A DNA stretch of 64,000 nucleotides from Verrucomicrobiota bacterium (GTDB lineage Bacteria > Verrucomicrobiota > Verrucomicrobiia > Chthoniobacterales > UBA10450): positions 18,294 through 82,293 of the forward strand of contig QHQA01000007.1 in assembly GCA_003219695.1 (NCBI GenBank), read 5' to 3'. The position numbers were made by a program, and so were the translations under genes. Below are positions 11,457 to 22,107 of this stretch, one piece after another (positions within the stretch are counted from its first letter, which is position 1; each line of letters begins with the position of its first letter). The notes under the pieces are model-generated. The model did no database searches. It had not been told where the DNA came from and was given only the letters and a program-made list of their open reading frames with translations.

Positions 11457-11527
11457 TGTCATTCCGAGCGAAGTCGAGGAATCTCTGGATTCAAATTTGA
11501 GATGTCTCGACTGCGCTCGGCATGACA
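11457..11527. repeat. Inverted-repeat element of the TGTCATTCCGAGCGAAGTCGAG family
   Basis: tgtcattccgagcgaagtcgaggaatctctgg...gagatgtctcgactgcgctcggcatgaca, a 71 bp near-palindrome. Confidence 0.85.
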
Positions 11528-17690: not shown

Positions 17691-17744
17691 AACGAAGAAA
17701 GCTGAAAGTTTGGTGGGTGGCTAAAGCGGCGAATCCCAGATTCC

Positions 17745-17917
17745 GGGTAGCGCATGCGTCTCGCGTGCTGGTGTAGCCTGCCCTGAGCGAAGTCGAAGGG
17801 GCGTCGCGCCGAAACAGGCTTTCTTTGAATTGGTGCCTCCAGCGTCGTGGGGAACTGATAAGAAAGTTCGCGATTGCGAGGACGCGCTCGCCAACATGCG
17901 AGAGGCGTGCGCTACCC
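17745..17917. repeat. MITE-like element with ~28 bp imperfect terminal inverted repeats (gggtagcgcatgcgtctcgcgtgctgg / ccaacatgcgagaggcgtgcgctaccc)
   Basis: Ends are mutually inverted; interior carries further gtagcctgccctgagcgaagtcgaagg sequence. Confidence 0.75.
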
Positions 17918-20940: not shown

Positions 20941-21032
20941 GTCATTCCGAACGAAGTCGAGGAATCCCGTGGAATTACTTTACGGCAGCGCCACGGGATC
21001 TTTTGAATTCGCTTCGCTCCGCTCAAGATGAC
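20941..21032. repeat. Inverted-repeat element of the TCATTCCGA(G/A)CGAAGTCGAGGAATCCC family
   Basis: gtcattccgaacgaagtcgaggaatcccgtgg...ccacgggatc...ttcgcttcgctccgctcaagatgac. Confidence 0.8.
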
Positions 21033-21037
21033 GATCA

Positions 21038-21970
21038 TCACAACAAATTGTCGAGATACGTCTGCCTGTCGAACGGCGCGAAATCTTCAAGCTGTTCACC
21101 GGTGCCGACGAATCGCGTGGGAATTCCAAGCTCATCCTCAATCGCAACGACGATGCCGCCCTTGCCGCTGCCATCGAGTTTTGTAACGATGAGGCCGGTG
21201 AGTCCAAGCGCGTTGTGGAATTCGCGCGCCTGACTGAGCGCGTTGCTGCCGGTGGTCGCATCGACGACGAGCAACGTATCGTGCGGCGCGGTTGGATCCA
21301 GCTTGCCAAGGGCGCGTTTTACCTTTTGCAGTTCAGCCATCAGGTTCGTTTTGGTATGTTGGCGACCAGCCGTATCGCAGAGCAAAAAGTCAATGTCGCC
21401 CTTGGCGGCCACCTGATACGCTTCGTAGCAAAGCGCAGCCGGATCGGCGCCGTATTTGCCGCGGACTATTTCAACGCCGAGTCTTTTGGCCCAAATATCA
21501 AGCTGCTCAATCGCCGCTGCGCGAAAAGTGTCCGCTGCCGCCAGCATCACGCGGGTAGCGCTCGCTTCCAGCGGGCTGCGTTCGGCATCCTGCCGAACGC
21601 CGAATGTTCGCGGCAAGACGCCGCGAACTGCACGGTGGAAGCGCGCGCTACCCAAATAATGCGCGAACTTTGCCGTGGATGTTGTCTTGCCGGTCCCGTT
21701 CACGCCGACGATCAAAATCACTGTTGGTTTTCCAATCGCTCGTCGGATGGGCGCTGGATCATGCGGCAAAATTCGCGCAATCTCCGTGCGCACCGCTTTG
21801 ATCACATCGCCAATCCCAAGCAAAGCCCAAGCTTCGCGTTCCTGGAGCGTTTTGATGATTCGCATTGTCATCGGCACGCCGAGATCGGCACGGATGAGCG
21901 CTTCTTCCAGCTCATCCCAATCGATGGGTTTGCCAGCAAATTGTTGCGCGAGGGATTGAAGGAAATTCAT
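21038..21970 (-). CDS. ftsY: Signal recognition particle receptor FtsY (GTPase NG domain) with in-frame insertion
   Basis: GVNGTGKTTSTAKFAHYL, VMLAAADTFRAAAIEQL, DTAGRQHTKTNLMAEL, TKLDGSGKGG. Confidence 0.95.
   Translation of the reverse strand: MNFLQSLAQQFAGKPIDWDELEEALIRADLGVPMTMRIIKTLQEREAWALLGIGDVIKAVRTEIARILPHDPAPIRRAIGKPTVILIVGVNGTGKTTSTAKFAHYLGSARFHRAVRGVLPRTFGVRQDAERSPLEASATRVMLAAADTFRAAAIEQLDIWAKRLGVEIVRGKYGADPAALCYEAYQVAAKGDIDFLLCDTAGRQHTKTNLMAELQKVKRALGKLDPTAPHDTLLVVDATTGSNALSQAREFHNALGLTGLIVTKLDGSGKGGIVVAIEDELGIPTRFVGTGEQLEDFAPFDRQTYLDNLL
21553..21653. repeat. 101 bp palindromic element inserted in frame in ftsY
   Basis: 18 bp terminal inverted repeats (gggtagcgctcgcttcca / tggaagcgcgcgctaccc, one mismatch) plus internal hairpins ttcggcatcctgccgaa and gttcgcggcaagacgccgcgaac. 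Confidence 0.92.
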
Positions 21971-22014: not shown

Positions 22015-22107
22015 TGTCATTCCGAGCAAAGTCGAGGAATCCCGTAATGAAACCAAAACGTGACGCCACGGGGTCCTTCGACTCCGCTTCGCTCCGCTCA
22101 GGATGAC
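22015..22107. repeat. Inverted-repeat element of the TGTCATTCCGAGC family
   Basis: tgtcattccgagcaaagtcgaggaatcccg...cacggggtccttcgactccgcttcgctccgctcaggatgac. Confidence 0.8.

Follow-up and report, generated by a model that had tools for sequence, protein, structure and literature searches.

A REPIN-like palindrome read in frame within ftsY, and recurrent repeat-derived inserts at the same FtsY loop in related Verrucomicrobiota

The stretch of DNA analyzed here (the window, 64,000 nucleotides of a draft Verrucomicrobiota genome) carries the gene for FtsY, the signal recognition particle (SRP) receptor, a protein-targeting GTPase that is normally essential. The encoded protein scores 293 bits against the NCBIfam FtsY model TIGR00064 (cut-off 261), while its PF00448 match is broken in two by an insert. 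It is the single FtsY match in its own genome, the other true match being the paralogue Ffh. GTPase motif columns are invariant over 67 aligned FtsYs and, together with the TIGR00064 score and the fold matches described below, they show that the window protein has the NG domain of an SRP receptor and that its GTPase motifs are intact. The features of the locus, and the families of inserts found at the same loop in other genomes (handles G002 to G072), are collected in Table 1.

Table 1. Features of the window and insert families found at the FtsY loop
Feature	Position or genomes	Strand	Remarks
ftsY, SRP receptor GTPase, host of the insert	21038..21970	-	310 aa; ORF + TIGR00064 + PF00448
REPIN-like palindromic element	21553..21653	-	101 bp; read in frame as GSARFHRAVRGVLPRTFGVRQDAERSPLEASAT
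End REP, coding side	21636..21653	-	GGGTAGCGCGCGCTTCCA; GTAG tag
Opposite end REP	21553..21570	+	GGGTAGCGCTCGCTTCCA; GTAG tag; inverted relative to coding-side REP
Inner hairpin	21578..21600	.	perfect 10-bp stem, 3-nt loop
Inner hairpin	21606..21628	.	perfect 9-bp stem, 5-nt loop
Second REPIN-like inverted pair of GTAGCGC REPs	17744-17917		body with CCTGAGCGAAGTCGAAGGG-type repeat
TCATTCCGAGCGAAGTCGAGGAATC-type repeat, three copies	11459-11483, 20942-20966, 22017-22041		
E1	window, G004		REPIN type
E2	G017, G018		TTGTAGGGCGTCTGTG...
E3	G006, G025, G034		GGTAGGGGCGGTTCAC...
E4	G002, G008, G009		single hairpin resembling half of E3
E5	G010		looks like fragment of another repeat; less certain
E6	G011, G033		looks like fragment of another repeat; less certain
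E7	G072 (L115), another genus		different palindrome, GGAGGGACGACC...

A sequence-only reading of this DNA had claimed that a palindromic element lies in frame inside ftsY, and its length proved to be exactly 101 bp. The 18-bp ends (GGGTAGCGCTCGCTTCCA and TGGAAGCGCGCGCTACCC), described in that reading as terminal inverted repeats, are complementary at 17 of 18 positions; such repeats are also a feature of MITEs. Moreover, a short palindrome closed by a GTAG tag (GGGTAGCGC...) stands in inverted orientation at both ends, as in GTAG REPs, and the two inverted REPs flank a body, which is the layout of a REPIN; the same plan was found in L002, L005, L163, L271 and L274. Two internal hairpins had also been described, and both are present with perfect stems, but the better stem is of 10 bp and not of 9 bp. 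The minimum free energy of the element is -74.3 kcal/mol, versus -44.1 +/- 3.4 for shuffled sequences (z = -9.0; none of 200 as low), and on both strands it folds far better than shuffled sequence (z of about -9).

The loop of canonical FtsY had been described as short, and insert-free proteins of the lineages examined indeed have a near-constant spacer of 16-17 residues there. The window FtsY is longer, although not by the approximately 33 residues initially counted: relative to sister proteins that lack an insert it has gained 28 residues net (84 bp), the element having taken the place of about six canonical loop codons (approximately QKDRHS). Among the genus ftsY loci compared, none offered a closely related empty counterpart of the window insertion. 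In an AlphaFold2 model the core has pLDDT values mostly above 90, while residues 111-129 fall below 50, the low-confidence stretch lying between a helix (95-114) and a strand (141-146). The top PDB matches of the model are nearly all FtsY, the best one included, and the remainder are the paralogue Ffh. The prediction shows the insert as a disordered loop following helix alpha-1 of a confidently modelled FtsY core, in a turn that, in this Ras-like fold, presumably faces away from the nucleotide.

Outside the insert region, ftsY displays a dN of 0.07-0.10 and a dS of about 0.95 (dN/dS of approximately 0.1), whereas the insert codons of the window and of G004, the other genome with an E1 insert, differ with a dN of 0.22 (0.216) and a dS of 0.23 (0.231), noisy estimates from 35 codons only. 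Based on this contrast, FtsY is under purifying selection, while the sequence of the insert peptide looks unconstrained. Purifying selection and motif conservation also support the earlier proposal that this FtsY still works, and the insert-bearing protein is probably fully functional as judged from its sequence. At silent sites, however, the insert has diverged much less than its flanks, a gap that neutral inheritance in its simple form does not account for; related copies may have inserted separately and recently, or the palindromic DNA itself may be constrained. Compensatory changes were uninformative on RNA function, because 36 of 41 base pairs are unchanged between the two copies, one is altered on both sides and four are broken.

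Related copies of the element are present both in the window's own genome and across the genus, and G004, with similar FtsY residues, also has inverted-repeat DNA at the site; neither of the two outcomes that the sequence-only reading had named as refuting it was obtained. REP ends of the type GGTAGCGCNNGCNTC occur at 138 sites in the own genome with at most one mismatch, versus 43 for a reversed-pattern control, and many of them form inverted pairs approximately 115-150 bp apart. The many dispersed copies typical of REPs and REPINs are seen at the level of the REP ends, the exact body of the FtsY copy having diverged from other own-genome copies: when the 105-bp element was searched against that genome, all matches were weak and covered it in part, and GCTTCC-type ends, as on the FtsY copy, are rare there. 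Similar two-hairpin elements do lie elsewhere in it (L002, L005). Among the 35 genus genomes searched, all of which appear to be drafts or MAGs, 24 contain matches to the element, with full-length copies in G005, G002, G032 and G024. Two 101-bp copies are in frame within genes of the error-prone DNA polymerase DnaE2 (G005 and G002), at different protein positions; together with the two FtsY copies, all four clearly intragenic copies of the E1 type are read in the same frame, giving a GSARF...DACAP-like peptide.

The own genome also contains a RAYT transposase gene (G000:C113; NF047646, 82.5 bits, cut-off 80), with inverted GTAGCGC REPs on both sides at a distance of approximately 0.2 kb, as expected of a RAYT. 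Its neighbouring REP ends are of the GCGTC type, while those of the FtsY copy are of the rare GCTTCC type; since the end types differ, this RAYT is a candidate, rather than an established, mobiliser of the FtsY copy. None of the searched repeats was found near six other fetched Y1_Tnp genes of this genome, except for a CTGAGCGAAG repeat at one of them. The tail of the RAYT frame (L237:1025-1837) enters the flanking REP (..RRDAETSTRDACATQ), as if the REP encoded the end of its own transposase. Further repeats populate the window (Table 1): of the three TCATTCCGAGCGAAGTCGAGGAATC-type copies, where none is expected by chance, two flank ftsY, and repeats of this type are apparently translated within UvrA of the own and other species (ERSREIPSRN..).

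Close FtsY relatives bear the names Candidatus Udaeobacter, Spartobacteria and Chthoniobacterales, from which we infer that the genus is Candidatus Udaeobacter (Verrucomicrobiota), a globally abundant genus of soil bacteria. In FtsYs of the genus that lack an insert, the P-loop and the DTFR motif are separated by 17 residues throughout. Loop inserts were found in 13 of 31 genus FtsYs (approximately 40%), as compared to 2 of 38 FtsYs from the family's other genera, the latter being a count of length-departing FtsYs from the search match table (Fisher p = 3e-4). E2 and E3 are dispersed repeats in their own right, E2 with matches in 35 of 35 genus genomes (up to 31 per genome) and E3 in 34 of 35 (up to 33 per genome). 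From lineage to lineage the exact point of insertion shifts by several codons. Occupied by unrelated repeats in about 40% of related species, the loop is a natural landing site, one where inserts are tolerated and that several unrelated repeat families use.

A DNA tree of FtsY was built with the loop left out, and the insert states require 13 changes on it. Approximately unbiased (AU) tests rejected a single clade for E2 (5e-12), for E3 (5e-32) and for all inserts together (2e-65); for E1 (window and G004) the result was borderline (p = 0.026), and one clade for E4 was not rejected. The two E1 copies are equally long, have the same boundaries in the gene and match at 81% identity. Moreover, the sisters G006, occupied by E3, and G013, which is empty, have flanks 93-95% identical over most of 6.8 kb, and the G006 insertion, unrelated to the window copy, measures 62 bp with ATCG on both sides. 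On the evidence of the tree and of this sister pair, the FtsY loop has been entered repeatedly and independently.

Other proteins host similar inserts. A spacer of UvrA has 15 residues in 10 readable genomes of the genus and 36-79 in 10 others, where several families are represented. UvrA of the own genome (L333, G000:C98:18500-25500) is a long frame of approximately 2038 aa with repeat-encoded stretches, e.g., SATVPVASLRGKLAAGRVRPTGGPEACAT and GSARASRAVFGAPPKT. In PurL of the own genome (L053, G000:C66) an insert with REP ends lies in frame close to the C-terminal part (..EEDRKRDACATLFNESQSR), and other hosts of E2 or E3 include a GH3 enzyme, a Methyltransf_28 protein, an Fe-S/FAD oxidoreductase and an amidohydrolase. 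In the paralogue Ffh the alpha-1 turn was free of inserts in the six fetched loci readable there, and it is constant in the genus (L326-L332); length varies just before DTAGR, with repeat-like residues (GGRNSSDAARVPGLAGARPS), which makes Ffh only a partly clean control.

We consider it very probable that these observations share one explanation, in which the window insert is a GTAG-tagged REPIN of RAYT origin retained in a tolerance-filtered loop. This non-autonomous mobile palindrome, with two inverted REPs around a two-hairpin body, would have been mobilised as single-stranded DNA, most likely by a RAYT (Y1/HUH) transposase of the same genome, and would have entered the FtsY GTPase domain at the short turn that joins helix alpha-1 to the next strand. 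Approximately six host codons would have been lost while the frame was kept; as there is also no in-frame stop, translation would turn the element into a disordered loop, about 33 residues long, that leaves the fold undisturbed. Unrelated palindromes would have invaded the same turn repeatedly in sister species because few places survive in-frame inserts, so that the hotspot would be mainly a filter by protein tolerance acting on a genome with heavy repeat traffic. Tolerance, rather than benefit, is in our judgement the probable reason for the hotspot. We also lean, with less assurance, towards regarding the alpha-1 turn as a natural insertion port that is invaded, emptied and re-invaded by unrelated palindromes, with the length of a core GTPase varying between sisters as a result.

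A hotspot could also arise from a DNA target preference of the transposition machinery instead of protein tolerance, and the presence of several families within a few codons in FtsY, and within one spacer of UvrA, would fit such a preference. Nevertheless, insertion points lie several codons apart between lineages, the site is used by different families presumably served by different machinery, and the corresponding turn of Ffh is free in the six readable loci; we regard this alternative as unlikely. It seems less probable still that the insert is a useful, selected extension, in which the loop or the mRNA hairpin modulates FtsY through membrane or ribosome contact, or through a translation pause during folding. 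Recurrent occupation in 13 of 31 species and the low silent divergence of the insert relative to its flanks could reflect selection, but the occupants are unrelated, add from 6 to 28 net residues and are missing from many species, the model contains no folded unit in the loop, the amino acids of the insert change as fast as its silent sites, and similar inserts occur in functionally unrelated proteins.

Tolerance of repeated insertion also has to be set against a single ancestral insertion followed by vertical inheritance, many losses and sequence replacement. The shared length, boundaries and 81% identity of the window and G004 copies, together with the borderline AU result for E1, make this possible for that pair alone. 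As a general account it is improbable, as unrelated families share the site, the AU tests strongly reject one origin for E2 and one for E3, and the occupied and empty sisters differ by a clean insertion. An assembly artefact or pseudogene, that is, a chimeric MAG contig or a decaying ftsY, might be suspected in a draft genome of 224 contigs; nevertheless, independent assemblies of other species have inserts in the same loop, and the gene, the sole FtsY match in its genome, retains a 310-aa open frame with conserved GTPase motifs under strong purifying selection, which renders this hardly credible.

Preferring an in-frame REPIN at a tolerant loop, we suggest that in this genus core proteins have been lengthened time and again by mobile palindromes, with one structural loop as the common site of unrelated families. 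Series of occupied and empty orthologs may serve as natural replicated experiments on the tolerance of proteins to insertion, and on the shaping of proteins by mobile DNA that is read in frame. There is also a warning for annotation, as peptides such as GSARF..DACAP and GGSPEPP..WGQSPLP are repeat-encoded and not domains. In the open-access literature searched, we found no FtsY hotspot that several families share and that an occupied and an empty sister document, no relevant link between REPs and FtsY, and none between palindromes and Udaeobacter.

REPs read in frame are already known from Verrucomicrobia, and Rickettsia palindromic elements (RPEs) were described earlier still; the FtsY element adds to a known phenomenon. 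RPEs, palindromes of approximately 100-150 bp found in frame in core genes and adding an extra peptide (PMC10969869), had been named as the nearest parallel. The notion of a mobile-like, protein-tolerated element held, but the likeness to RPEs considered here is one of layout, namely an in-frame palindromic insert in the gene of a core protein, whereas the present element belongs to a soil Verrucomicrobiota and is of the GTAG/RAYT type. Enterobacterial RUs, reported to be MITE-like small mobile sequences that carry ORFs and occur inside genes (PMC2759123), share the MITE-like, intragenic character; the element and the lineage are different here. The closest kind is the GTAG REP/REPIN with its RAYT (PMC3733652; PMC3116915), with which our element has in common that its palindromes are imperfect and carry GTAG tags, that they pair in inverted orientation around a body, that copies are numerous, and that a RAYT gene lies between inverted REPs. 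GTAG REPs are known in Verrucomicrobia and inside ORFs, DNA-repair genes among them, and in Opitutus terrae both uvrA genes contain them (PMC3733652, 2013); REPs also lie within dnaE2 genes of some species, and in two Xanthomonas species recB is occupied at nearly the same site by different REPs (PMC3733652). Compared with these known GTAG REPs, the host described here is ftsY, the inner body has two further hairpins, and several unrelated palindrome families occupy the same loop within one genus.
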